The translations under genes were made by a program, and so were the position numbers. Positions 20,016 to 58,250 of a stretch of DNA of 64,000 bases are shown here, piece after piece (the first letter of the stretch is position 1; each line of letters begins with the position of its first letter). Source of the stretch: Paraburkholderia sartisoli (lineage in GTDB: Bacteria > Pseudomonadota > Gammaproteobacteria > Burkholderiales > Burkholderiaceae); NCBI RefSeq assembly GCF_900107685.1, contig NZ_FNRQ01000001.1, positions 1,116,001 through 1,180,000 on the forward strand, read 5' to 3'. The notes below the pieces were generated by a model. That model ran no database searches and was not told the DNA's origin. It saw only the letters and a program-made list of their open reading frames with translations.

Positions 20016-21056
20016 GTGATGCCACCCGATTCCTCACCTTCTTCCGCTGCAGGCAAGCGCGCCTCACCGCACTCGACGGTGCGGCGCGACCTGGCGTGCG
20101 TGGCGGCGATCGGCGTGATCGCGGCGGTGCTGTGCGCGACGCTCGATTTCGGCGAACGGTTCTATCGCTGGACGCGCGGTGCCGAGCGCTTCCAGGTCGA
20201 CGAATTGCCGCCCACGCTGTTCGTGCTGGCCAGCGGCCTTGCGTGGTTCGCGTGGCGCCGCTATCGCGAGGCGCAGCGCGAACTGACCCGGCGCCGCGAA
20301 CTGGAGGCAGAAGCCGAACGGCTGCTCGCCGACAATCGCCGGCTCGCGAGCCAGGGCATCGATGCGCAGGAAAACGAGCGGCGTCACCTCGCCCGTGAAC
20401 TGCACGATGAACTCGGCCAGTATCTGAACGCGATTTCACTCGACGCCGCGCGTATCCGCGATCTGGCGGCTCCGCGCGAGCCCGAGATCCACCGGATTGC
20501 CCTCGCGCTGATGCAAAGCGCGCATCACGTGTACCGCGAGATTGGCGGCATGATCCGTCGGTTGCGCCCGACCGGGCTCGACGAATTCGGCCTGCCGGGC
20601 GCGCTGGAACATTGCGTCGACGGCTGGCGCGAGCGGCTGCCGGGCGTTTCTTTCACGCTGACGGTGGAAGGCGATTTCTCCACGCTTGGCGACGCGCGGA
20701 ACATCACGCTCTACCGGCTTGTGCAGGAAGGGCTCACGAACATATCGAAGTTCGCGCGCAACGCCCGCGTGGAGATTTATCTGGTGCGCACGGCGGGCGA
20801 GGGCGGCGAGATCGTCGTCACGATGGCCGACGACGGGCCCGGCGTCGATCTGTCGATACCGCGCAAGGGGCTTGGGCTCATCGGCATGCGCGAGCGTGTC
20901 GAGGCGCTCGGCGGCGAGTTTCACGTCGCGAGCGAGCCGGGCAGCGGGTTTCTCTTTTGCGCGCGCGTGCCCGTGCCGGTGCCAACTCAGGCAAGCCCGG
21001 TGGCGCCGAACGCAGCCGGTGAACCGGCGGGCGCCGCGGCGAATTCCGAAAAATGA
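20016..21056 (+). CDS. membrane sensor histidine kinase, NarX/UhpB-type (HisKA_3)
   Basis: A 346-residue kinase with two membrane segments (about residues 24-42 and 66-83) enclosing only some 20 residues, so no separate periplasmic sensor domain. A coiled linker follows, then the HisKA_3 phospho-acceptor ENERRHLARELHDELGQYL (His about residue 132) and an HATPase domain with ADDGPGVDL and KGLGLIGMRERVEALGGEF. It starts at GTG 20016 or ATG 20019. Its 3' end overlaps the converging response-regulator gene by 70 bases. The partner is very probably that regulator, and the context suggests control of quinoprotein or PQQ functions. Confidence 0.88.
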   Translation: MMPPDSSPSSAAGKRASPHSTVRRDLACVAAIGVIAAVLCATLDFGERFYRWTRGAERFQVDELPPTLFVLASGLAWFAWRRYREAQRELTRRRELEAEAERLLADNRRLASQGIDAQENERRHLARELHDELGQYLNAISLDAARIRDLAAPREPEIHRIALALMQSAHHVYREIGGMIRRLRPTGLDEFGLPGALEHCVDGWRERLPGVSFTLTVEGDFSTLGDARNITLYRLVQEGLTNISKFARNARVEIYLVRTAGEGGEIVVTMADDGPGVDLSIPRKGLGLIGMRERVEALGGEFHVASEPGSGFLFCARVPVPVPTQASPVAPNAAGEPAGAAANSEK

Positions 21057-21688
21057 AGGCCGAGGCGGTTTGCCATCTGCGCGAGTTGCACGCCGTTGTC
21101 CGCGCCGAACTTCTGCCGGATCACGGATTGATGATTGGCCACCGTCTTCTGGCTCAGGCCGAGACGCTCGGCGATGCTCGGCAGCGTGTAACCCTGCACG
21201 AGCAGGCGCAGCACCTCGAATTCACGCGCCGATAGCTGCCGCCCTGGCGGCCCTTCCTGAAACGACGCGCGCAGCGCGAGCGCCTGCGAGACATCCGCGC
21301 TCAGATAGCACACGCGCCGGGCGACCGAGCGCACCGCTTCCACGAGCACATCCGGCGCGCTCGCCTTCGTCACGTAGCCGCGCGCGCCGGCATCGAGCGC
21401 GCGCCGCACGAACAGCGTTTCCTCATGCACGCTGAAGATCAGCACGTGGGCGTCGGGTTCGCGCGCGAGCATGCGCCGCATCGCCTCGATGCCGCTCGCC
21501 CCCGGCAACGCGAGGTCCATCACGACGACGTCAGGCTGCAACGCGCAAAAGCGCTGATAGGCTTGCGCGGCGTCGCCCGCTTCGCCCGCGACCCGCACGT
21601 CGGGGCTCAGTTCGAGGAGCCGCCGGTAGCCCTCGCGGACCACCGCGTGATCGTCCACCAGCAGGACGGAGACGGGGGCGGTTGTCAT
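20987..21688 (-). CDS. NarL/FixJ-family response regulator, last gene of the pqq run
   Basis: A 233-residue regulator with a receiver domain (VSVLLVDDHAVVREGYRRLL; phospho-aspartate in VVMDLALPG) and a LuxR HTH (LSAREFEVLRLLVQGYTLPS, LGLSQKTVANHQSVIR). Its ATG overlaps the pqqE stop in ATGA, so it is translated as part of the PQQ operon. Its C-terminal codons overlap the kinase gene on the other strand. A poorly conserved tail (residues 213-233, Ala/Gly/Pro rich) lies in the overlap. Homologous regulators control PQQ-linked alcohol oxidation in other bacteria (family knowledge); the targets here are unknown. Confidence 0.9.
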   Translation of the reverse strand: MTTAPVSVLLVDDHAVVREGYRRLLELSPDVRVAGEAGDAAQAYQRFCALQPDVVVMDLALPGASGIEAMRRMLAREPDAHVLIFSVHEETLFVRRALDAGARGYVTKASAPDVLVEAVRSVARRVCYLSADVSQALALRASFQEGPPGRQLSAREFEVLRLLVQGYTLPSIAERLGLSQKTVANHQSVIRQKFGADNGVQLAQMANRLGLHFSEFAAAPAGSPAAFGATGLA

Positions 21689-25677: not shown

Positions 25678-26496
25678 CTAACGGACGATCAGCAGTTCGC
25701 CACGGCCGTCCACCGCCAGATCGCCCGCGTATCGCCGCGGCAACGCCGCGCCGCGTAACGCCGAAAACGGCGCGATTTCCTGCGCGAACGAACGCACCAG
25801 CAGCGACCAGAACACGTCGAAGCCGCGTCCGCCCGTGGTGAAGGTGGGCGGAATCCGCGCGGGCGCCTGCAACAGCAGCAACGTGCCGCGCCGCATGCCA
25901 TAACCGTAGTGCGCGCCGACGCGTCCCGCAATGCCGACCGTGCCCGCCACCATCCGCGAGGCCGCGCATTCGCCCGCGTCGCCGCCCACCAGCACGAGGC
26001 CGCGGCGCATCCGGTCCGCGAGGCGCGCGCCGGCGTGGCCGTGGATGGTGAGCGTGCCACCCGTCATGCCTTCCATGTCGCCTGGCAGCGCGCCGGCCGC
26101 GAACGCGCCGCTGTTGCCCGTCACCGTCAGGCGTCCGCCGCGCATTTCACAGCCGGTGAAGCGGCCCGCGTCGCCTTCGATCACGAGCGTGCCGCCGTTC
26201 ATCCGCAACCCGGCGTAATCGCCGCACGAACCCCGCACGGTGAGGCTGCCCGCGTCGAGCTGCGCGCCGACGTGGTCGAGCCAGCTCACGTCGCCTTCGA
26301 TCACGAGCGCGGTGTGTTCGCTATCCGCGCGCGCGATGTCGAACAGGTCGGCCGCCACGCAGGTTTCGTTGCCGGCGGGCAACGCGATGCGCGCCACGTC
26401 CGCGACCGGCAACGCAGCGAGCGCGGCGGGGAGCAGGCGCGCGGCGTCCACGCGAAAGCCCGGCGCGTGCCTGACGCGCAGCGTGGTCGTGCTCAT
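25678..26496 (-). CDS. fhcC: formyltransferase/hydrolase complex subunit FhcC
   Basis: A 272-residue subunit related to formylmethanofuran dehydrogenase subunit C. It has a right-handed repeat fold with many GG/GD turns (GSLTVRGSCGDYAGLRMNGG, FTGCEMRGGRLTVTGNSG, RMRRGLVLVGGDAGECAAS). In bacteria it belongs to the complex moving formyl from H4MPT to a methanofuran-like cofactor and releasing formate. The ATG overlaps the fhcD stop in ATGA. Confidence 0.93.
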   Translation of the reverse strand: MSTTTLRVRHAPGFRVDAARLLPAALAALPVADVARIALPAGNETCVAADLFDIARADSEHTALVIEGDVSWLDHVGAQLDAGSLTVRGSCGDYAGLRMNGGTLVIEGDAGRFTGCEMRGGRLTVTGNSGAFAAGALPGDMEGMTGGTLTIHGHAGARLADRMRRGLVLVGGDAGECAASRMVAGTVGIAGRVGAHYGYGMRRGTLLLLQAPARIPPTFTTGGRGFDVFWSLLVRSFAQEIAPFSALRGAALPRRYAGDLAVDGRGELLIVR

Positions 26497-27455
26497 GCGG
26501 GCCTCCGCCCGGCAGCGGCCGCCATTTCATGCAAATGGAAGTGATACGGGCCGAGCTTGCCGCCGTAATTGCCCGCTGAAATCCGCAGCACGCCGGCGGC
26601 GCGTCCGCGCGCGGTAGCCGCGGCGATGCCGGCCGTCATCGCCGCGCCGACGTCGGCATCGGTCAGGCCGTCGATCACGATTTCCATCACGCAGCCCACT
26701 TCGGCGGTCAGTTCGCTTTTTTTCGCGAGGCCGGTGAGCGTGGGGCAGAACGCGTCGTTCGTCGACGCCGTCGCGCCCGCATATTTCGAGCCGATTTTCG
26801 AGCCGGAGCGCACGACGCCGCCCGGGAACGGCATGATCACGTTCGGCAGCGCGCGCATCGCGTCGGCGGCCGCTTCGGCGGCGGCGAGCGCGGCGTCGAT
26901 GTCGGTGCCGAGCAATAGCAGGTTGCCGCCGCCGACGCCCTTGACCGTGACCGCGGTTTCCTCGCAGACGAATTCGCCGTCCATCACCGGCACGCGCCAG
27001 TAGCGCGTGTTGCCGATCATCTTCGAAATCTGCCAGCCGTCGCCGAAGAAACGCAGGTTCTTGCCGAGCGCGGCGTCGTCCGAGCGCGGCGCCTGGCTCG
27101 TCGCGGGGTCGATGCCGCTGTAGATCGCGGTCGTCGGACATGTCAGCACGCACTGGCCGACGCGTCGCTCGATCTGCTTCGCCAGTTCCTTCGACGACAC
27201 CGCGAAGAGCAGCACCGCGACGCCAGGCCGTCCGTCCGGCGTTTCGTCGCCGCCGAGATCGCGCTCGATGCCCGCTTCGCAGCCGCAGCCGATCACCGAG
27301 GTGGCGAATCCGGTCAGCGACTGCGCGGCGTGCCTCGCCCAGACGGAAGTGTGCGCGGTGATGACGAGCCGCGTGGCCTTCATCGGGAACGCTTCCGCGA
27401 AGGTGTCGTCGATGAGTGTGCCGTTGATTTCCATCGGCGTGGCGGCGTGGGTCAT
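26493..27455 (-). CDS. fhcD: formylmethanofuran:H4MPT formyltransferase subunit FhcD
   Basis: A 320-residue formyltransferase of the bacterial Fhc complex, homologous to archaeal Ftr. Family segments include INGTLIDDTFAEAFPMKATR, GFATSVIGCGCEAGIER, KMIGNTRYWRVPVMDGEF and GSKIGSKYAGATASTNDAFC. The start at 27455 follows from the ATGA overlap with fhcA; the end overlaps fhcC in ATGA. Confidence 0.95.
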   Translation of the reverse strand: MTHAATPMEINGTLIDDTFAEAFPMKATRLVITAHTSVWARHAAQSLTGFATSVIGCGCEAGIERDLGGDETPDGRPGVAVLLFAVSSKELAKQIERRVGQCVLTCPTTAIYSGIDPATSQAPRSDDAALGKNLRFFGDGWQISKMIGNTRYWRVPVMDGEFVCEETAVTVKGVGGGNLLLLGTDIDAALAAAEAAADAMRALPNVIMPFPGGVVRSGSKIGSKYAGATASTNDAFCPTLTGLAKKSELTAEVGCVMEIVIDGLTDADVGAAMTAGIAAATARGRAAGVLRISAGNYGGKLGPYHFHLHEMAAAAGRRPA

Positions 27456-29161
27456 GGGCGTACCGCCGTGAAACAGGCGACGGGCAGCAGCCGGCCGCCG
27501 CGGCAGCACGCGCAGATTTCGTCGTCGCTGATCGCCGCGTGCGCGAAGTTGCCGACGAGGTTCGCGTCGCTGTACGCGCGCAGCGTTTTCTCGATGCCGC
27601 GGTCGAAGTCGGGCGACACGAAGTGGATGCCGCCTGTCGGCGTGGCGACGAGCGTGCCGTCGCGCGCGACGAGCTGGCCGTCCTTGAACACATACGCGGG
27701 CGACGAGAACATGCGCTCGCGATCCGCGTCGTCGCGATAGACGGCGATATCCGCCGCCGCGCCCTCGCCGAGCTGGCCGCGATCCTTGAGGCCGAGCAGG
27801 CGTGCCGGCCCGGCGCGCGTGACGATCGCGATCTCGTAGAGCGACAGTTCGCGGGTGAGTTCGGGCAGCGCGCTCGCGACCTGCGCCTCGGGATGCAGCT
27901 TCGCGATCTGTTCGTCGCGAAAGCTTTTGTCCATCAGGAGGCGGATCAGGTGCGGATAGCTCGTGAACGGGCCGCCGTTCGGATGGTCGGTGGTCATCGA
28001 CACGCGCCACGGGTCGTCGATCAGCAGGAAGATCTCGAGGCCGATGATCCATTGCAGCGCGTTCACATAGCTTTGCTCGCGGTAGCGGAACGGCACGATG
28101 CCGCAGCCCGCGTCGCATTCGATGTCGCCCACGATCCACTTGCGCGGCGAGGCGAGCGGCGCATTCTTGAACTGCATCATCGTGTCGCCGGACGCGGTGA
28201 CGGTCTGGCCGAAAATGATCTGGCCGACGTCGATCGAGACGTTCGGCCGCGCGTTGACGGCTTCGGCGATCGCGCGCGCGCCCGAGGAAAATTTGCGCGG
28301 GCCTTCCGTGCCGTAGCTGTGGAACTGGATGTGCGTCAGGTGGATCGGCAGGCCGTCGGCGGCGTCCATCGTCGCGATCGTCGAGGCGACGTTGCCCGGC
28401 ACGCCGAGATTGCTCGCGTGGACGTGCAGCGGATGCGGCACGCGCAGCTCCGTCAACGCGCGCGAGAGCGTGCGCAGCACGTCGCGCGGCGTGACGCCGT
28501 AATGCACGTGCGCCTCGTCGACGTCGAGCGAGCGCTGGTTGAACTTGAACGCCGAGATGCCGCCCGGGTTCACCACCTTCACGCCGAGCGCCTTGCTCGC
28601 ATGCAGCGTCCAGCCGACGTAGTCGCGCAGCCGCTCGAAGCCGTCGCGGGCGGCGAGCATCTGCAGCAGCAGTTCGTCGTTGCCGAGCATCACGTAGGCG
28701 CCGTGATCGATGATCGGCGTGTCGCCCATTTCCAGGTGCGTGTGGCGCGCGTTGGACGGCATCATCGCCGGCTCGAACGCGGCCGTGTAGCCCATTTCCG
28801 CGTAGCGATAGCCGGTGGCGAGCGTGCCCGGCGCGCAGACGCCGCACGACGGCATGCGCAGATAGCGGCCCTCGGCATCCGATACCGATTCGTAACTGGA
28901 GTCGCGCGGCGCGTCGTTGCGATGGTCTTCCGGCAGCAGCAGGCGCGACAGGTTCGTCTTGCCGCCGCCGATGTGCGAATGCAGGTCGATGCCGCCCGCC
29001 ATCACGATCATGCCAGTGGCGTCGTAATCGTGATCGATATGTGTGCCGGCCGGCGGCGCCGCGACGATGCGGCCGTCGCGGATATACAGGTCGCGGCGTT
29101 CGCCGTCGACGTTGTTCGCCGGATCGTAGACGAGGCCGCCGGTTAGCCGCGCGAGGCTCAT
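27452..29161 (-). CDS. fhcA: formyltransferase/hydrolase complex subunit FhcA (amidohydrolase)
   Basis: A 569-residue subunit homologous to formylmethanofuran dehydrogenase subunit A, an amidohydrolase-fold protein. Metal ligands are in GGIDLHSHIGGGKTNLSR (about residue 58) and PLHVHASNLGVPGN; ECDAGCGIVPFRY and TTDHPNGGPFTSYPHL carry further conserved residues. In methylotrophs this complex hydrolyses the formylated cofactor to formate. ATGA overlaps link it to fhcB and fhcD. Confidence 0.95.
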   Translation of the reverse strand: MSLARLTGGLVYDPANNVDGERRDLYIRDGRIVAAPPAGTHIDHDYDATGMIVMAGGIDLHSHIGGGKTNLSRLLLPEDHRNDAPRDSSYESVSDAEGRYLRMPSCGVCAPGTLATGYRYAEMGYTAAFEPAMMPSNARHTHLEMGDTPIIDHGAYVMLGNDELLLQMLAARDGFERLRDYVGWTLHASKALGVKVVNPGGISAFKFNQRSLDVDEAHVHYGVTPRDVLRTLSRALTELRVPHPLHVHASNLGVPGNVASTIATMDAADGLPIHLTHIQFHSYGTEGPRKFSSGARAIAEAVNARPNVSIDVGQIIFGQTVTASGDTMMQFKNAPLASPRKWIVGDIECDAGCGIVPFRYREQSYVNALQWIIGLEIFLLIDDPWRVSMTTDHPNGGPFTSYPHLIRLLMDKSFRDEQIAKLHPEAQVASALPELTRELSLYEIAIVTRAGPARLLGLKDRGQLGEGAAADIAVYRDDADRERMFSSPAYVFKDGQLVARDGTLVATPTGGIHFVSPDFDRGIEKTLRAYSDANLVGNFAHAAISDDEICACCRGGRLLPVACFTAVRP

Positions 29162-30585
29162 GGCGCGCTCCGTGTGGTACCCGCGACGCCGCTTGCGGGC
29201 GTGTCTGCGTGGCGGCTTTTTTCGACGCTGTCGGCGAGGCGCGCGGCGATCGCGTCGACGCCAGGCAGACCGGCATGGCGGGCCGCGGAAAGCGGCGCGA
29301 CGACCGTGCCGTCGATGCGGAACAGGTGGCCGCCGATGTCGATGCCCGGCGTCGCGACAGGAATGAAGACCGTCGGCCCGCGACGCGCGGCGGCCGCGCT
29401 CGCTGTCGCCGCCGCCATCGCGGCATGGCCGAGCACGATCGCCGGCACATCGGGATCGAGCGTATCCGGCAGCGGCTGCGGTCCGAAGCTCGACACCCAC
29501 AGCAGCGCGTCGACCTCATGGCGGGCGAGCAGCGTGTCGGTGCGATAACGCGTGGGATCATGGTCGAGCGGGGCTTCGGCGAGACGTCCCGGCATGGCGA
29601 TGCGCGTGCGCAGCGGAAAACCCGATAGCCACGTGAACGTCTGGCTGGCGCTGAGCGCGCCGTCGGCGCCGCCGAGCGGCAGGCCGCCGGCGCGCGTGGT
29701 CCGGTTCACGGCCTTGATGAGCCGGTTCAGCGCTTCGATCAGCAACGCCGCGTGCGGCCCGGGCAACGCTTCGGGCTCGTAGACGAACACCGTGTAGCGC
29801 GCGGCGTGTATCTCGTCGATCAGGCCCGCCAGCGCGCGTGCCGTGCCGCTCGCATCGTCCAGCGCTTCGACGCCGCGGCCCTCCAGCAGCGCGGACCACA
29901 CCGCGAGGAGGTCGAACAGGTCGCCTCCCGCGAGGAGCGAGGCGGCGCCTGCGTGCCTGAGCGCGTCGACGGCCGGATCGGCTTCGCAGCCGACGAACCT
30001 GAATGTGCGCGTGAATGGAGCCGTGCCGGTCGCGCGCGCGTAGAAACGCGGATGGCGCGCTGACGGCTGGCACGCGAACACCACGACGAGATCGGCGCGC
30101 GCGCGGACTTCGGAGAGCGTCGTGAAGAACGCGCCGCGATCCTGCAGCGCGAGCGTCGATGCCGTCAGCGCGTCGCCATGCAGATGATCGACGATCGCGC
30201 CGCAATGCGCGGCCAGCGCATACAGCGAGCGGGCACCGGCGATATCGGTCGCCATGCCGCCGAACAGCGGCCTGCGTGCCTGCGCCAGGATGTCGGCGGC
30301 ACGCGCGAGGGCGGTGTCGAGGTCGGCTTGCTGGCTGTCGACCGATGCCTTGCAATGCGCATCGGCGGCGCCGTATAGCGCAAGCGCCCGGCCAAGCCGG
30401 GGGCAATCGGTGGCGGGCGCGCTCAGGCTGTCGTCGCTGTGTACGCCTGCCGCGATGTCGTCGCAGAGCAGCGGACAGAAAGGACAGGTCCAGTCGGACG
30501 TGATGGACGCGGACACGCCCGTCGGGCCGGCACTCGACGGATGGTTGGACGAACGGTGCATGGTCGCGTTTTCAGCAAGGACCAT
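29158..30585 (-). CDS. fhcB: formyltransferase/hydrolase complex subunit FhcB
   Basis: A 475-residue subunit resembling the molybdopterin-type subunit B of formylmethanofuran dehydrogenase. An N-terminal CPFCPLLCDDI motif near residue 34 is followed by RPLFGGMATDIAGARSLYAL and TPGIDIGGHLFRIDG. Bacterial FhcB is known to lack a working redox centre, in keeping with hydrolase function. The start at 30585 (GTG or ATG alternatives close by) has no strong ribosome site; ATG 30561 is also possible. First gene of the long minus-strand run down to 20987. Confidence 0.9.
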   Translation of the reverse strand: MVLAENATMHRSSNHPSSAGPTGVSASITSDWTCPFCPLLCDDIAAGVHSDDSLSAPATDCPRLGRALALYGAADAHCKASVDSQQADLDTALARAADILAQARRPLFGGMATDIAGARSLYALAAHCGAIVDHLHGDALTASTLALQDRGAFFTTLSEVRARADLVVVFACQPSARHPRFYARATGTAPFTRTFRFVGCEADPAVDALRHAGAASLLAGGDLFDLLAVWSALLEGRGVEALDDASGTARALAGLIDEIHAARYTVFVYEPEALPGPHAALLIEALNRLIKAVNRTTRAGGLPLGGADGALSASQTFTWLSGFPLRTRIAMPGRLAEAPLDHDPTRYRTDTLLARHEVDALLWVSSFGPQPLPDTLDPDVPAIVLGHAAMAAATASAAAARRGPTVFIPVATPGIDIGGHLFRIDGTVVAPLSAARHAGLPGVDAIAARLADSVEKSRHADTPASGVAGTTRSAP

Positions 30586-30664
30586 GCCGGGAGCGGGTTA
30601 TCGGCGCGTGGTTTCGCTGGCGCGTGAGTGTCTGAGCGCGTGCGTGACGAACCCGCACGCCATA

Positions 30665-30773: not shown

Positions 30774-30810
30774 AGCACAGTATGTGCTTCGTTCTGAAAC
30801 ACTGTGTCAC
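30774..30810 (+). promoter_or_regulatory. two palindromes, candidate activator-binding sites upstream of mfnD
   Basis: GCACA-GTA-TGTGC at 30774-30786 and TGAAACACTGTGTCAC ending at 30810 are two inverted repeats built on TGTG(T)C half-sites. The core CACAGTATGTG is identical to that upstream of xoxF (56175-56185). Its centre is about 99 bp before the -24 GG of the sigma-54 element at 30878, nearly the same distance as at xoxF (96). It lies between the divergent fhcB and mfnD genes and might serve both. Confidence 0.55.
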
Positions 30811-30877
30811 GTGATCGCTCCGCGCTGCAACACCCCGCCTTGCCAATGCATTACAGCCCGCTCGCCCGCGGCGCGCG

Positions 30878-30892
30878 TGGCACGGATATTGT
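30878..30892 (+). promoter_or_regulatory. sigma-54 promoter candidate for mfnD operon
   Basis: TGGCACG-GATA-TTGT matches the -24 box perfectly and the -12 box except that GC is GT. It lies 88 bases before the GTG of mfnD, downstream of two palindromic elements. Confidence 0.55.
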
Positions 30893-30979: not shown

Positions 30980-32056
30980 GTGACCAAGCTGTTTGTATAC
31001 GAATATCTGACTGGCGGCGGCATCGATCCCGATCTCGCGGGCGAAGGCAGTCTCGCCGATCTGAGTGCGCTGATCGTCGAAGGCCGCGCGATGCGCGATG
31101 CGCTCGTCGCCGACCTGCGTGCCCTCGACGGCGTGCAGGTGACGTTCGCCAGCTCGCGATTCGAGCACGTCGACGCTTCGCTGGCGCATTGCCGCGCGAT
31201 GCCGGGCGAACCCATGAGCGACTTCGTTGCGCGTGCGGCGCGCGAGCACGACTACGCGTGGGTGATCGCGCCGGAATGCGACGGCCTGCTACGCCAGCTG
31301 CACGACGCCGTCGGCGCCGCGCGCTGGCTCGGTTGCACGCCGCAGGCCATCGATATTGCGTCGGGCAAGCGCGCGACGGCCGAACGTCTCGCGGCGCACG
31401 GCATCGCCGTGACACCCGCGCTGTCGCCCGAACAGGGAAACGAACCCGGCCACGCCGAAGCAGCGATGGCGTCACGCCGCTGGGTCGTCAAGCCGGACGA
31501 CGGCGCGGGTGGGCTCGACACGTTTCTCTTCGACCGCTTCGACGACGCCAGCGCGGAATATCGCGCGCGGCTCGCGGCCGGGCGCAATCCGGTGCTCCAG
31601 GCGTGGGTTGACGGCGAACCGCTGAGCCTCTCGCTGGTCTGCGGCGCAGCGCGTGCGGAACTCATCAGCATCAACCGGCAGCAGATCGGCGTGCCGGATC
31701 ATGCCGCGCCGGGCCACGCGGAACGGGTCGTCGAGTTCAGCGGCGTGCAGGTCGACCAGATCGCCCTGCAGAGCGAGGAGGGGCGCGTGCTCGAAGCGCT
31801 CGCGCAACGTGTGGTCGCCGCGTTGCCGGGCCTGCGCGGGTTTGCCGGCATCGACCTCGTGTGGCATCCGCAACGCGGCCCGGTCGTGATCGAGGTGAAC
31901 CCCCGTCTCACGGCGGCCTATGCCGGTCTGTCCGCGCGGCTCGGGCGCAATCTCGCCCGCGTGCTGCTGGAATCGCATGGCGTGACGGTGAACGCTTCGG
32001 CAACGCCAGCCGCGCAATGCCATGCCGGAGCGCAAGCATGCGGGGCCGCGTCATGA
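30980..32056 (+). CDS. mfnD: ATP-grasp ligase, MfnD-like (methanofuran tyramine-glutamate ligase family)
   Basis: A 358-residue ATP-grasp protein with MTKLFVYEYLTGGGI at the start, ATP-binding residues in RRWVVKPDDGAGGLDTFLF and metal ligands in GFAGIDLVWHPQ and VVIEVNPRLTAAY. Archaeal MfnD joins glutamate to tyramine in methanofuran. It starts at GTG 30980 with AAGGA nine bases before. Its stop overlaps mfnF in ATGA, and mfnE and mfnB follow, which together argues for methanofuran-type cofactor synthesis. Substrate assignment is by context. Confidence 0.75.
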   Translation: MTKLFVYEYLTGGGIDPDLAGEGSLADLSALIVEGRAMRDALVADLRALDGVQVTFASSRFEHVDASLAHCRAMPGEPMSDFVARAAREHDYAWVIAPECDGLLRQLHDAVGAARWLGCTPQAIDIASGKRATAERLAAHGIAVTPALSPEQGNEPGHAEAAMASRRWVVKPDDGAGGLDTFLFDRFDDASAEYRARLAAGRNPVLQAWVDGEPLSLSLVCGAARAELISINRQQIGVPDHAAPGHAERVVEFSGVQVDQIALQSEEGRVLEALAQRVVAALPGLRGFAGIDLVWHPQRGPVVIEVNPRLTAAYAGLSARLGRNLARVLLESHGVTVNASATPAAQCHAGAQACGAAS

Positions 32057-35370: not shown

Positions 35371-35445
35371 TTAACGGATTGCGATATACATCGTGATTTC
35401 AAAACCAAAACGCATATCGGTGTAACTCGGTGTCGTCCACTGCAT
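35371..35445 (-). CDS. pqqA: PQQ precursor peptide PqqA
   Basis: A 24-residue peptide starting [10 protein letters not shown] and ending [12 protein letters not shown]. It has the invariant E-x-x-x-Y (EITMY), whose glutamate and tyrosine become PQQ, with the usual W, P and R-x-G-F-E context. The start at 35445 is chosen because GGAGG lies six bases before it; an in-frame ATG at 35451 abuts GGAGG and is unlikely. It stands alone, more than 10 kb from pqqBCDE, between DUF447 and the cbb operon, and has its own promoter, a perfect sigma-54 element at 35525-35539. Confidence 0.93.
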
Positions 35446-35524: not shown

Positions 35525-35539
35525 GCAAGCGCCGTGCCA
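35525..35539 (-). promoter_or_regulatory. sigma-54 promoter of pqqA, perfect -24/-12 match
   Basis: On the minus strand, TGGCACG-GCGC-TTGC matches the sigma-54 consensus at every fixed position. It lies about 80 bases before the pqqA start. A TGTTTCA half-site at 35614-35620, 75 bases further upstream, resembles the half-sites before mfnD. Confidence 0.75.
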
Positions 35540-35697
35540 GAAGCAGCACAGTGAAGCGGACACTGGGCACCGTGCTGGCTTACGCGGCTTACTGTCGCGA
35601 AAACGCAGCAAAGTGTTTCACCATCATACGAGTTTCTGGCTGCGGCGGAGGGATCGATTCGCACCATGAGCCAAAGAATTGCTTAGGGATGGAGAAG

Positions 35698-44008: not shown

Positions 44009-44586
44009 GCAAGCTTGAGGTGGGTCAGTCGTTGTTCGAGCGCCGCCCTGAGTTCATCGAGCGAGCGCGCCACCGTCGTGTACTCGATGCGCGCGAGCCG
44101 CTCGACGTTCTCCAGTTCGATCGCCCGCGGCCGCACTTCGACCCATTCGTGCGGGGTCTGCGTGATGACACTCGGTGCCGTATCGCATGCGAAAACAATG
44201 CCAGGTACACATTGCTTGCCGGCCTGCGCGAAGAGATTGGTCGGCAACGTGTCCGAGATGCCGAACGCGCACTTGGCGACGGTGTTGCTGGTCGCGGGCG
44301 CGATGATGACGGTGTGATATTCGCCGTTGTAGATCATGCCGACGGGCACGCTGCTCGCGCTGTTGTCGCGCACCACGCGAAAATGCTCGCGCAGTTTCGC
44401 GATCGTCCAGCCGTAGAGCGGCAAGACCTCTTCGCCCGCGGCCGACAGGAACAGGTCGACGCCCGGCAGCTGGCGCGCGAGGTCGATCGATTCCTCGAGC
44501 ATGTGACCCGAGCCGGTCACGCACCACGCGAACCGCGCGTCGGGCTTGAACTCGTCGAGCCGGCGAGCGGGCGTGGGTGCGTTCAT
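43987..44586 (-). CDS. dmrB: dihydromethanopterin reductase, DmrB flavoprotein
   Basis: A 199-residue FMN-binding flavoprotein with ARFAWCVTGSGHMLEESIDL, YHTVIIAPATSNTVAKCAFG and TPHEWVEVRPR. The archaeal-type DmrB family, characterised in a Burkholderia species among others, reduces dihydromethanopterin to H4MPT. Its ATG overlaps the stop of the sigma-54 regulator in ATGA, so its translation is coupled to that regulator, and it overlaps the next gene by 22 bases. Confidence 0.85.
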   Translation of the reverse strand: MNAPTPARRLDEFKPDARFAWCVTGSGHMLEESIDLARQLPGVDLFLSAAGEEVLPLYGWTIAKLREHFRVVRDNSASSVPVGMIYNGEYHTVIIAPATSNTVAKCAFGISDTLPTNLFAQAGKQCVPGIVFACDTAPSVITQTPHEWVEVRPRAIELENVERLARIEYTTVARSLDELRAALEQRLTHLKLAWTTSSS

Positions 44587-46694
44587 GCGTCGGAAGGCGA
44601 AGACCCGTCGTGGGAGAGCCGGATCTGCAGCCGGTGCATCTTCCGGTACAGCGTGTTGCGGCTGATGCCGAGCCCCTTCGCGACGTTGCTGACGTTCCAG
44701 CGATGTTCGTCGAGCAGCGCCAGCACCGTCTCACGCTCTTTCAGCTGGATTGCGTTGAGCGTCGAAGTGTCGGCGTCGTCGGCCGCGCGTGGGGGCGTGG
44801 CGGCGCCGGGCAGGCCCGTGGACCGCGCAAGGCCCGGCGCGTCGTACGCGCTCGCGGCGCTTGCCGCACCGGCGGCGGCAGCGCCGGAAGCGCCGCGGCA
44901 GATATCCGCGGGGAGATGCGAGCAGCGGATTTCGTCGCCGTCGCAGAGCGCCATCGCCATCTGCAGCACGTGACGCAACTGGCGGATGTTGCCGGGCCAC
45001 GCATAACCGAGCAGCGCGCGCTGGGCTTCCGTGCTGAGCGTGGGCGGATCGTCCGTTTCGCTTTCGAGGATGTGATGGATCAACGCGAGCGCATCGGCAC
45101 GGTCGCGTAGCGCGGGGAGATTGATTTCGATGCCGTTCAGCCGGTAATACAGGTCTTCGCGGAACTGGCCGTTCTGCACGAGCTCCATCAGGTTGCGGTG
45201 GCTCGCGCTGATCAGCTGGAAATCCACCTTGACGGTGACTTCCGCGCCGAGCGGCGTGACTTCCTGCTCTTCGAGCACGCGCAGCAGGCGCGCCTGGAGC
45301 GCCATCGGCATGTCGCCGATTTCGTCGAGAAAGAGCGTCCCGCTGTTCGCCTGCACGATCTTGCCGCGCCGTCCTTCGCGCTGCGCGCCCGTGAACGCGC
45401 CCGCACGATAGCCGAACAGTTCGCTTTCGATCAGGTTCTCCGGCAGCGAGGCGCAGTTCACCGCGACAAACGCGCCCGCGCTGTTCGGGCTGATGCTGTG
45501 CAGCGCGTTCGCAAACACTTCCTTGCCGGTGCCGGTCTGCCCGCGCAGGATGATCGGAATCTTGCGCTGGATCACGCGCGCCGCGAGCTGGATCTGCGAA
45601 GCCATGCCGGGGTCGCCGAATTCCAGATGCGAGAGCTTGTCGAGCCGGTTGGCCTGCCCGCGCGCTTCCCGGCTATCGCGCGGCCTGACGCTCCGGCTGC
45701 GTGCGGCGGACGGGTATTCGCGCGCGGCCGGATCGGTCATCAGGATGCGCGTCGCGGTGTCGGTGGCGTCGCGCGGCGTCTGCGCGATCAGGAAAAAGCG
45801 GTTGTTGGCGTTCGCGCTGTACACGGTCACCGGATGGAACGAGCCCCGGATGCTGCGCGCGAGCATGTCTTCGAGCGACGAGTTGAACGCCTCCTCGATG
45901 CGCTTGCCGACCAGTTCCGCGTGCGAGCGGTAATCGAGCTGGAAGAGGGCGCTGCGGCTCGCGGCCAGCACGACGCCTTCGTCGCTGACGGCGAGCTTGC
46001 CCGCATGCAGCGTACCGACGAACTCGGGGCGGCTATGAAAGTGGATCATGTGCGCGCGGCGGTAACGCGCGTCGATCAGGCGGTTTTCGATCATCTGCCG
46101 CGACATGCCGACGAGCACCAGCGAATGCTGCTGCAACAGCTTCGAGCGGCTCGTCACGTCGAGCACGCCGGCAACCGCGCCGCGATCGTCGAAGATCGGC
46201 GCGGCCGAGCAGGTCAGCGACGTGTAACGCGGATAGAAGTGCTCGTGCTGGTACACCGCGATACATTCGCGTTCGGCAAGACAGGTGCCCATGCCGTTTG
46301 TGCCCGCTTCGCGCTCGCTCCAAAGCGCGCCGACACGCAGGCCGTCGGCGGCCACGGCTTCGCCGAACGGCACCGACGACACCTGATGCACGATCACGCC
46401 TTCCGCGTCCACCAGCACGACGGCCAGTTCGGGATCGGCGAGCTGCTGGTACAGCGTGGTCATCTCGAGCTTCGAACAGGCGATCAGGTCGCTCGCGGCT
46501 TCGCGCCGCGCGGCCAGCTCCTGCTGCGTGAGAATGGGCGGCATCACGAAATGCGCGGGATCGAGCCTGAATTCGTTCAGGCAGCGCGTCCATGACTGCG
46601 CCACCGAGGCACTGGTGGGCCGTGTCGCCACCTGGTTGTGGACGGTACTGAGTACTTCCCGGACATGCGTGTTGATGTCTGCAAGCGACGACAT
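44583..46694 (-). CDS. sigma-54-dependent activator (AcoR-like, GAF-PAS-AAA-Fis)
   Basis: A 703-residue enhancer-binding protein. Residues about 60-210 form a GAF-like sensor (REAGTNGMGTCLAERECIAV); a PAS-like region covers about 240-330. The AAA+ domain has Walker A RGQTGTGKEVFANAL, the sigma-54 contact loop GAFTGA and LFLDEIGDMP. A Fis-type helix-turn-helix closes it (WNVSNVAKGLGISRNTLYRK). It starts at 46694 (GGAGA upstream) and is coupled to dmrB by ATGA. It is the only sigma-54 activator in the window and lies among six candidate -24/-12 promoters. The inducer may be an alcohol, aldehyde or C1 intermediate. Confidence 0.92.
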   Translation of the reverse strand: MSSLADINTHVREVLSTVHNQVATRPTSASVAQSWTRCLNEFRLDPAHFVMPPILTQQELAARREAASDLIACSKLEMTTLYQQLADPELAVVLVDAEGVIVHQVSSVPFGEAVAADGLRVGALWSEREAGTNGMGTCLAERECIAVYQHEHFYPRYTSLTCSAAPIFDDRGAVAGVLDVTSRSKLLQQHSLVLVGMSRQMIENRLIDARYRRAHMIHFHSRPEFVGTLHAGKLAVSDEGVVLAASRSALFQLDYRSHAELVGKRIEEAFNSSLEDMLARSIRGSFHPVTVYSANANNRFFLIAQTPRDATDTATRILMTDPAAREYPSAARSRSVRPRDSREARGQANRLDKLSHLEFGDPGMASQIQLAARVIQRKIPIILRGQTGTGKEVFANALHSISPNSAGAFVAVNCASLPENLIESELFGYRAGAFTGAQREGRRGKIVQANSGTLFLDEIGDMPMALQARLLRVLEEQEVTPLGAEVTVKVDFQLISASHRNLMELVQNGQFREDLYYRLNGIEINLPALRDRADALALIHHILESETDDPPTLSTEAQRALLGYAWPGNIRQLRHVLQMAMALCDGDEIRCSHLPADICRGASGAAAAGAASAASAYDAPGLARSTGLPGAATPPRAADDADTSTLNAIQLKERETVLALLDEHRWNVSNVAKGLGISRNTLYRKMHRLQIRLSHDGSSPSDA

Positions 46695-46732: not shown

Positions 46733-47117
46733 CACGCTGCGTGACGCCTCCCCGGCGCGTATCTATGTAGGTTTCCCCTCGCGCTGCTGTGTCTCGAGGC
46801 ACGCATGCGCGTCAACCAGCCCAATCCTGTTCCGCAACCGCGGTACACGTGAGTATGGCAGCGCTAGCCTTTAAGCGCAGGCTTCACTCATTCAAACTCT
46901 ACAACCGATAGCGACAGGGTTCAATCATTAGTCGCAGCAATATGCGTGTGTGCGCCCGAAATTTGCTTTGCTGTGCAAAAGCCTTCCGGAAGTCGAACGA
47001 TCCGGCATCGTGCATCCGTTTGTGCGTCATAAACGGCGCATTGTGTCCGGCGTGCGCGCGAAGGCCACCTGATCCGCCGGAAAGCGCGGATTTTCACACC
47101 CAGAGGACACACACACC
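46733..47117 (+). other. divergent gap, activator and second folB
   Basis: 385 bases. A TGTGTC half-site occurs near 46788, and an imperfect inverted repeat GCTTTGCTGTGCAAAAGC near 46967. I found no convincing -24/-12 element for the plus-strand folB copy. The sequence is slightly richer in A/T around 46860-46930, where promoters for both directions may lie. Confidence 0.35.
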
Positions 47118-48950: not shown

Positions 48951-48965
48951 ACATGTTCCGTGCCA
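48951..48965 (-). promoter_or_regulatory. sigma-54 promoter candidate of fae
   Basis: On the minus strand, TGGCACG-GAAC-ATGT has a perfect -24 and a weaker -12 (GT instead of GC), 114 bases before fae. TGTGTA (48855) and TGTGTCGG (48866) lie downstream of it in the leader, an unusual place for activator sites. Confidence 0.5.
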
Positions 48966-55966: not shown

Positions 55967-55981
55967 GCAAGCAGCGCGCCA
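55967..55981 (-). promoter_or_regulatory. sigma-54 promoter candidate of the pterin dehydratase gene
   Basis: Minus strand TGGCGCG-CTGC-TTGC, one change from consensus in the -24 (G for A), 45 bases before the ATG at 55922. It shares the 507-base intergenic region with the divergent xoxF; the TGTGTC array about 200 bp upstream could activate both. Confidence 0.5.
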
Positions 55982-56173
55982 GTCATGTGGCCGCGGGCGT
56001 CGCCGGCAGCCACGTTTTCCCCGACTCCGGCCGACGCGTGAAACGCGCCGCTGCGCGGGCCTCGCGTGAGGCTGCACAAGGGGCGAGGCGTGTGAAGGCG
56101 TCCTGTCATGTTGCGCCGCCGCATGACAGCGTGTGCTTGCGGGCGAGCGGCACGCGTGACAAATCGCGTATTT

Positions 56174-56234
56174 GACACAGTATGTGTCGCAATCCGAATG
56201 ATCGTGTGTCGCAAGCGGCGGGCGGCTGTGTCAC
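56174..56234 (+). promoter_or_regulatory. TGTGTC array upstream of xoxF
   Basis: GACACA (56174) with spacer GTA faces TGTGTCGC (56183). Two more direct copies follow, TGTGTCGC (56205) and TGTGTCAC (56227), each exactly 22 bp apart, i.e. about two helical turns. The first pair forms the GACACA-GTA-TGTGTC palindrome whose core recurs upstream of mfnD. The whole set lies 43-103 bp before the sigma-54 -24 element, in keeping with an upstream activator site. Confidence 0.7.
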
Positions 56235-56275
56235 TGCGCGGCGAAACGCAGGTGTGAGGCGCGTAAACCAGGTTC

Positions 56276-56291
56276 CGGCACGGAATGTGCA
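56276..56291 (+). promoter_or_regulatory. sigma-54 promoter of xoxF
   Basis: CGGCACG-GAAT-GTGC-A has the required GG-N10-GC spacing (GG at 56277, GC at 56289) and two changes from consensus. The xoxF ATG is 139 bases further on. No good -35/-10 pair was noticed in the region. Confidence 0.6.
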
Positions 56292-56429
56292 AACGGTCTG
56301 CGGAAGCAAGAACCTGGCGATGAATCAGGCGAAGCACGGTCGTTACCCGTATCCGAGCGAGGCGCACTCGGTGCGACACGGTAGCGCGGTCATTGACGAA
56401 TCGGACGGTTTCAACAATCTGGAGGAGAC

Positions 56430-58250
56430 ATGAACGTACGCACCCTGGTTCTCGGACTGGCGGTGGTAGCGGCGACGGCCCTGAATTCATTCGTTGCACA
56501 GGCTGATTCGCAGCTCGACACGCTGATCAAGAACCCCTCGAACTGGGCGGCACAGGCGGGCGATTACTCGAATCACCGCTACAGCCCACTCAAGCAGATC
56601 AACGAAAGCAATGTGAGCAAGCTGCAGGTTGCCTGGACGATGTCCACCGGCGTCCTGCGCGGCCATGAAGGCTCACCGCTCGTCATCGGCGACACGATGT
56701 ATATCCACTCTCCGTTTCCGAACAACGTTATCGCGATCAACCTGAAGGACCAGACGTTCATCTGGCAATACGAGCCGAAGCAGGACACGCAGGTGATTTC
56801 GGTGATGTGCTGCGACACGGTCAATCGCGGTCTCGCGTATGGCGACGGCAAGATCTTTCTCCAGCAGGCCGACACGAAACTCGTCGCGCTGAACGCGAAG
56901 ACGGGCGACGTGGTCTGGACCGCGCAGAACGGCGATCCGAAAGCGGGTGAAACGAACACCAACGCGCCGCACGTATTCGGCGACAAGGTGATCACCGGCA
57001 TCTCGGGTGGCGAGTTCGGCGTGCGCGGCCGTCTGATCGCGTACGACATCAAGACCGGCAAGGAAGCCTGGAAAGCCTACAGCACCGGCCCCGACGCCGA
57101 CATGCTGATGGACCCCGACAAGACGATGACGTGGTCGGACGGCAAGATGGTGCCGGTCGGCGCGGATTCGTCGCTGAAGAGCTGGAAGGGCGACCAGTGG
57201 AAGCTGGGCGGCGGCACCACGTGGGGCTGGTACGCATGGGATCCCAAGCTTAACCTTGTCTACTACGGCACCGGCAATCCGGGTACATGGAACCCGACGC
57301 AACGTCCCGGTGACAACAAGTGGTCGATGTCGATCTTCGCGCGCGACCTGAACACCGGCATGGCGAAGTGGGTCTACCAGATGACCCCGCACGACGAATG
57401 GGACTATGACGGCGTCAACGAAATGATCCTCGTCGACCTGCCGATCGGCGGCAAGACGACACCGGCGATCGTCCACTTCGACCGTAACGGCTTTGGTTAC
57501 ACATTGAATCGCGTGACCGGGCAGCTGCTGGTTGCCAACAAGTTCGACCCGGCGGTGAACTGGGCCGATAGCGTCGACCTGAAGTCGGGCCTGCCGGTGC
57601 GCAACGCCGCTTACTCGACGCAAAAAGCCGGTCCGGATCACAACGTCAAGGGCATCTGCCCGGCCGCGCTCGGTTCGAAAGACCAGCAGCCGGCGGCCTT
57701 CGACCCCGGGTCGAAGCTGTTCCTCGTGCCGACCAACCACGTCTGCATGGATTACGAGCCGTTCGACGTCGACTATGTTTCGGGCCAGCCGTTCGTGGGC
57801 GCGACGCTGTCGATGTATCCGGGTCCGAAGGAAAACGGCGCGATGGGCAATTTCATCGCGTGGGACGCGGCGAAGGGCAAGATCGTCTGGTCGAAGCCGG
57901 AACGGTTCTCGGTGTGGTCGGGCGCGCTCGCGACGGCTGGCGGCATCGCGTTCTACGGCACGCTTGAAGGCTATATCAAGGCCGTGCGCATCAAGGATGG
58001 CAAGGAACTGTGGAAGTTCAAGACGCCGTCCGGGATCATCGGCAACGTGTTTACGTACGAATACCAGGGCAAGCAGTTCGTCGGCGTCTATTCGGGCATC
58101 GGCGGCTGGGCAGGTATCGGCATGGCCGCGGGCCTCCAGAAGTCGACGGAAGGTCTCGGCGCGGTCGGTGGCTATCGTGAACTGGCGAAGTACACGGCAC
58201 TCGGCGGCACGCTCTTCGTGTTCGCCATTCCTGGCAGCACGGGTGGCTGA
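56430..58250 (+). CDS. xoxF: lanthanide-dependent PQQ methanol dehydrogenase XoxF
   Basis: A 606-residue periplasmic quinoprotein with a signal peptide ([20 protein letters not shown], cleavage near AQAD). The adjacent cysteines of the disulfide ring lie at 127-128 (VMCCDTVN). The active site WDYDGVNEM has aspartate at 325 and the extra aspartate at 327 that marks lanthanide-using enzymes; calcium MxaF has alanine there. W-motif blades such as [12 protein letters not shown] recur. It matches the XoxF5 clade in length. CTGGAGGAGACATG gives a strong start. xoxG and xoxJ follow. No mxaF is present. Confidence 0.97.

Follow-up and report, generated by a model that had tools for sequence, protein, structure and literature searches.

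Conserved −24/−12 elements and a palindromic site point to a probable sigma-54 regulon for XoxF-dependent methanol oxidation in a Paraburkholderia island

The window, a 64,000-nucleotide stretch of the Paraburkholderia sartisoli genome, carries an island with genes for a lanthanide-type methanol dehydrogenase (XoxF), its PQQ cofactor, methanofuran and the H4MPT pathway. Within it, the 11-base sequence CACAGTATGTG occurs exactly at 30776-30786, near mfnD, and at 56176-56186, near xoxF, each time 5' of a −24/−12 (sigma-54) element. The features considered here are as follows.

29158-30585, minus strand: fhcB open reading frame (TIGR03129, E 4e-50, under the curated cut-off)
30575-30589, minus strand: divergent −24/−12 element CGGCATGGTCCTTGC of the predicted fhcB-fhcAD-fhcC-pqqBCE operon (25/25 genomes; TGGCACATCGCTTGCG or a near form in 6 outgroup loci)
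30774-30788, no strand assigned: upstream site 1, AGCACAGTATGTGCT, containing the 11-mer; cut down to ACA-N3-TGTG in relatives
30795-30811, plus strand: upstream site 2, TGAAACACTGTGTCACG, of the two the putative operator with the stronger conservation (25/25 in the genus; exact match to TGNNACANNNTGYNNCR)
30878-30892, plus strand: mfnD −24/−12 element TGGCACGGATATTGT (25/25 orthologous loci; weaker outgroup form TGGCACGAATCGTGA in 7/7)
30980-32056, plus strand: mfnD-like ATP-grasp gene (NF040722, E 4e-18, under the curated cut-off)
35371-35445, minus strand: pqqA, 24-aa PQQ precursor peptide (TIGR02107, E 4e-12; PF08042, E 1.5e-11)
35525-35539, minus strand: pqqA −24/−12 element TGGCACGGCGCTTGC (about 10 of 13 relatives, those having pqqA here)
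35604-35620, minus strand: pqqA upstream site TGAAACACTTTGCTGCG, centred 74 bp from its −24 (kept among relatives having pqqA here)
44583-46694, minus strand: sigma-54 activator, AcoR-like, with GAF (PF01590), AAA+ with GAFTGA (PF00158) and Fis-type HTH (PF02954) domains
46896-46924, minus strand: sigma-70-like promoter of the activator gene itself, TTGAAC-N17-TAGAGT (a block conserved across 13 genomes)
48951-48965, minus strand: fae −24/−12 element TGGCACGGAACATGT (18 genomes aligned; outgroup form in 7/7)
55967-55981, minus strand: probable −24/−12 element TGGCGCGCTGCTTGC for the divergently read operon of the pterin dehydratase (PCD); a weaker case, as about 8-9 of 13 relatives have a similar element
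56173-56189, plus strand: xoxF upstream site TGACACAGTATGTGTCG (26/26 xoxF genomes, once per genome; 0/32 others)
56276-56290, plus strand: xoxF −24/−12 element CGGCACGGAATGTGC (CGGCAYGGAATRTGC or a near form in 26/26)
56341-56386, plus strand: hairpin CGTTACC...GGTAGCG, conserved in the leader of the xoxF mRNA (pairing in 98.8% of cells, with compensatory changes; 0/500 shuffles)
56430-58250, plus strand: xoxF, with the EWDYDG motif

The original prediction had noted the repeated 11-mer; the identity is exact at both places, with coordinates one base higher than those first given. With up to one mismatch allowed, 0.27 matches to CACAGTATGTG are expected per window, and two were reached in 1 of 100 shuffles. 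A third genomic copy of TGACACAGTRT was set aside as chance, as it lies inside an Hsp70-like gene. The distance from the palindrome centre to the GG of the −24 is 98 bp near mfnD (30781 to 30879) and 96 bp at xoxF (56181 to 56277), within one base of the earlier estimates of about 99 and 96 bp. The suggestion that this matched distance is a sign of function did not hold, however: the spacing ranges from 73 to 201 bp across the 26 xoxF orthologues, as expected of an enhancer, and the near-equality of 96 and 98 bp is therefore a coincidence.

We sampled 58 genomes of the genus, of which 26 have a close xoxF and 32 have none. Upstream alignment showed that the −24/−12 element CGGCAYGGAATRTGC is kept in essentially all 26, at 151-160 bp 5' of the xoxF ATG. 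The site TGACACAG[TA]ATGT is invariant in all 26. This 17-base form occurs exactly once in each genome with xoxF and in none of the 32 without it; a reversed control pattern gave 0. The closer group of sites, at about 73/74, 83/84 and 94/96 bp from the GG, falls near whole helical turns; in the farther group such phasing is not clear. XoxF is marked by an extra Asp (WDYDG) where MxaF has WDYAG. All 26 XoxF proteins have EWDYDG, and the best solved-structure matches are 6dam and 6oc5, while the MxaF-type 4tqo reads EWDYAG. A suspected loss of the lanthanide Asp in Paraburkholderia XoxF (RDLNTG) was discarded, since the solved-structure alignment identified the relevant motif as EWDYDG, which is present.

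Turning to the interval between fhcB and mfnD, all 25 genomes with an mfnD orthologue have the same arrangement: CGGCAYGG..CTTGCT toward fhcB, a twin palindrome, and TGGCAYGG....TTGT (or a near form) toward mfnD. Alignment of orthologous promoters, which the original prediction had proposed as a check, thus came out in its favour, with both the −24/−12 element and the operator retained at xoxF (26/26) and the mfnD-side −24/−12 element retained in 25/25. Conservation of the 11-mer itself was borne out at xoxF, in an extended form, and just partly at mfnD, where ACA-N3-TGTG is what generally remains. The second palindrome reported between the 11-mer and the promoter was located at 30795-30809 (TGAAACACTGTGTCA); across the genus it retains CA..GTGTCAC. 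The centre of upstream site 2 lies 76 bp from the mfnD-side −24. Outgroups have TGAAACACTGTGTSGCG or TGCCACACAGTGTGGCG at the place of the palindromes, which is the type of the second palindrome, and six of seven outgroup loci carry a 17-mer of the site 2 type, TG..ACAC.GTGT..CG. From these alignments, the second palindrome, and not the 11-mer, is the better-conserved half at mfnD, with the 11-mer as the weaker site there. No site of the strict xoxF type stands at mfnD, which has a looser version instead (per-region P 0.005-0.13 in the genus); the full xoxF dyad did worse in the mfnD regions than the looser one and was mostly not significant, and a PWM built from the xoxF sites alone did not recover the mfnD sites.

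The fhcB −24/−12 element, missed originally, overlaps the first ATG of the fhcB reading frame; if it is used, the true fhcB start must lie 3' of that ATG. The idea that one site serves both arms gains support from this element, as fhcB owns a divergent −24/−12 in 25/25 genomes. The fhc operon also includes pqqB, pqqC and pqqE. We noted that the fhcA-like gene and fhcD (FTR) form one 1022-aa open frame (26493-29561), with the FTR domains at residues 710-1013; this may be a fusion or a boundary between two genes.

In 23 of the 25 genomes the mfnD-side element lies 780-940 bp from mfnD (typically ~790 bp). The gene in between, in twelve islands of that kind examined and in outgroups, is HisA-like and on the minus strand, and within the genus its start codon is about 14 bp from that of mfnD. 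An example of this back-to-back layout, with the gene between mfnD and the apparent sigma-54 promoter, is L037:737-1486 in genome G044, and relatives share it. Membership of this gene in an mfnD operon was ruled out by its opposite strand. At this spot the window genome and G034 lack the gene, as do, separately, the second clusters (described below) of G041 and G020, and there the element sits 51-94 bp before mfnD. This placement, seen in two separate lineages, makes mfnD the likely target of the element. The window genome has a 45% relative elsewhere. Since the gene sits between promoter and mfnD, the mfnD and HisA-like transcripts should overlap in antisense. A transcript that crosses an antisense gene defines a noncontiguous operon, or excludon. 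The layout in most relatives may fit this, as the mfnD transcript would run ~760 nt antisense through the HisA-like gene; the window genome differs in that the gene is missing from this spot.

Conserved −24/−12 elements with GG-N10-GC/GT at fixed spacing precede xoxF, mfnD, fhcB, pqqA and fae. A candidate upstream site for fae lies ~277 bp away, within citG, and no upstream site was settled for the PCD operon other than the one shared with xoxF. The 5.9-Mb genome contains two Sigma54_DBD (rpoN) genes, 31 matches to TGNNACANNNTGYNNCR and 70 to YGGCAYGGNNNNTGY. When paired by hand, a site and a −24/−12 element within 250 bp and in the right order were found in this island only (three sites, four promoters); this is a partly circular consistency check, as the pattern TGNNACANNNTGYNNCR was written after the sites had been seen. 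Members of one subgroup carry a palindrome of the kind CGACACAGAGTGTGTCG ~90 bp 5' of folB; its counterpart in the window genome (46980-47100) is weak.

The activator frame can open at 46802, and its conserved ATG is at 46694. Against curated NCBIfam models (DhaR, PrdR, NtrC, NifA) it missed every cut-off, although its predicted way of working is like theirs. It is the only sigma-54 activator recognised within the island; these genomes have many other such genes. Of the 26 xoxF genomes, 25 have an activator of at least 73% identity. In the remaining one (G007) the activator is broken by stops, mfnD is missing and xoxF contains a stop, which reads as a decaying island. A stop was also reported in a few of the 25 tblastn activator matches, some of them outside the conserved frame. 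Elsewhere in the island, a histidine kinase and a LuxR-type response regulator (20016-21688) stand at the end of the pqq operon and are strongly conserved in all islands; this two-component system is a candidate lanthanide or PQQ regulator. Outside the window, at G000:C19:198288-203309, another activator (45%) adjoins a PQQ alcohol dehydrogenase (37%), and CGGCATGGACATTGC lies between the two; this may be the ancestral arrangement.

Next, we compared 260 genomes across the order. xoxF was found in 32, which include all six genomes with a strict activator match. The best −24/−12 score before xoxF separates activator-bearing genomes from the others (Mann-Whitney P 4e-4, or 1e-4 once three seemingly activator-negative genomes, which hold a 50-51% activator, are reclassified): in activator genomes xoxF has a good −24/−12 element upstream, whereas genomes without the activator mostly lack a good one. 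Clusters in Variovorax, Piscinibacter, Ramlibacter and Rhodocyclaceae have an activator 49-55% identical, −24/−12 elements at the same genes, the same gene order, the site, and the HTH core WNVSNVAK.L..SRNTLYRK. A second, diverged H4MPT cluster (L281-L288, in G041, G046 and G020) has its own activator (58-64%) and its own −24/−12 elements, one of them before a GHMP-kinase gene; between the same divergent elements lies a related site, CAGAYTGTCACG or CAAACTGTCACG. The promoter elements and sites, their conservation and their co-occurrence with the activator can be read directly from these genomes.

Collectively, these comparisons suggest that the repeated palindrome belongs to an on-switch under conservation, that is, a putative activator landing site together with a sigma-54 promoter. 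We infer from co-occurrence and from the protein's family that the sites are bound by the activator encoded at 44583-46694. It is thus probable, with good confidence, that this one activator, sites of the form TGNNACANNNTGYNNCR and −24/−12 promoters would make up a single regulon for XoxF, PQQ, methanofuran and H4MPT functions. The palindromes, each 5' of a −24/−12 element, would be upstream activating sites of the AcoR-like protein, whose GAF domain may respond to a C1 signal. Our guess is methanol or formaldehyde, because GAF-type relatives detect small molecules, the alcohol-responsive BmoR being one of them (PMC8899819). Most likely by the conventional enhancer mechanism, the activator at the dyad would loop to RNA polymerase-sigma-54 and drive the open complex. 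Predicted promoter use and operon extents give at least five promoters opened in this way, those of xoxF, mfnD, fhcB-fhcAD-fhcC-pqqBCE, pqqA-DUF447-mfnB and fae, and probably that of the PCD operon. The fhcB/mfnD site pair could serve both directions, the PCD/xoxF divergent pair would probably share sites too, and the two-component system could add lanthanide control. As one activator is proposed to open their promoters, the lanthanide methanol dehydrogenase, PQQ and the methanofuran/H4MPT formaldehyde pathway would be one sigma-54 regulon. We put forward a bolder version tentatively and at slightly less than even chances: across Burkholderiales, the activator may act as master switch for all of the methanol-to-CO2 module (XoxF, PQQ, methanofuran, H4MPT, Fae, Fhc), with the site common to the divergent promoters and, in most species, the mfnD transcript running antisense through the HisA-like gene, tying both by overlapping RNAs.

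Could the promoters depend on sigma-54 and the palindrome be bound by another protein, such as the LuxR-type response regulator (20987-21688) or another activator, the encoded activator acting elsewhere? Conservation in the island is just as strong for the response regulator and its kinase, and the many further activator genes offer candidates. Nevertheless, we consider this unlikely: the diverged second clusters, with a 58-64% activator, still carry a related site between the same divergent elements, the 44583-46694 gene is the sole sigma-54 activator recognised in the island, and the site is a far-upstream dyad at variable distance, as for sigma-54 activators. It is less probable still that the palindrome serves a repressor or a lanthanide switch as operator and has nothing to do with activation, with the −24/−12 elements used with a different activator site. 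Such an operator would fit the strict form of the site being unique to xoxF, but the site lies 73-201 bp 5' of the promoter without ever overlapping it (26/26), and related sites stand at the island's other sigma-54 promoters. That the 11-base identity is a functionless chance match is scarcely credible; taken alone, the 11-mer has a small yet real chance of recurring (1 of 100 shuffles), and the matched distance is coincidental, but the sites and promoters are conserved in 25-26 genomes and in outgroups, which contradicts it.

That a sigma-54 regulon has its activator encoded nearby is well documented (PMC6615313, PMC8899819), and BmoR itself is an alcohol-sensing activator with an alcohol ligand and a site 193 bp upstream (PMC8899819). 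The present activator shares with BmoR and the AcoR/DhaR-type GAF activators the GAF, AAA+ (GAFTGA) and Fis HTH domains and an inverted-repeat site 5' of −24/−12. It differs in matching no curated NCBIfam model and in its predicted targets, XoxF, PQQ, methanofuran and H4MPT genes in several operons rather than one. In Clostridiales regulons the sites are mostly 100-250 bp upstream and many are TGT-N10-12-ACA (PMC6615313); as here, one activator gene lies near several target operons, each with a site and a −24/−12 element, in another phylum and for other functions, whereas the site here is TG..ACA-N3-TGT..CA. Established regulation of xoxF and of PQQ alcohol dehydrogenases involves the lanthanide switch and the ped cluster regulators (PMC12997753, PMC6028718). 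The enzyme class is the same and a LuxR-type response regulator with a kinase is also found in this island; by contrast, the literature searched yielded no sigma-54 promoter ahead of xoxF or of H4MPT genes. In Methylosinus sporium, sigma-54 sites are reported at nitrogen genes (PMC12403871). Our search of open-access literature returned no report of sigma-54/RpoN control of xoxF, methanol dehydrogenase, PQQ or tetrahydromethanopterin genes, hence the novelty lies in the unexpected target set. Induction of XoxF and the H4MPT pathway outside model methylotrophs is poorly known, and the layout yields a testable regulator, a predicted binding site and a promoter set. It suggests that Paraburkholderia, which are common on plants and in soil, switch on methanol use as a single block, and synthetic methylotrophy might gain a natural C1 sensor from it.

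Lastly, the xoxF leader hairpin matched no Rfam family, nor did anything else in the window. It has an invariant 7-bp stem, CGUUACC/GGUAGCG, with the compensatory changes in the upper stem, and is possibly a translational or cofactor-linked control element.
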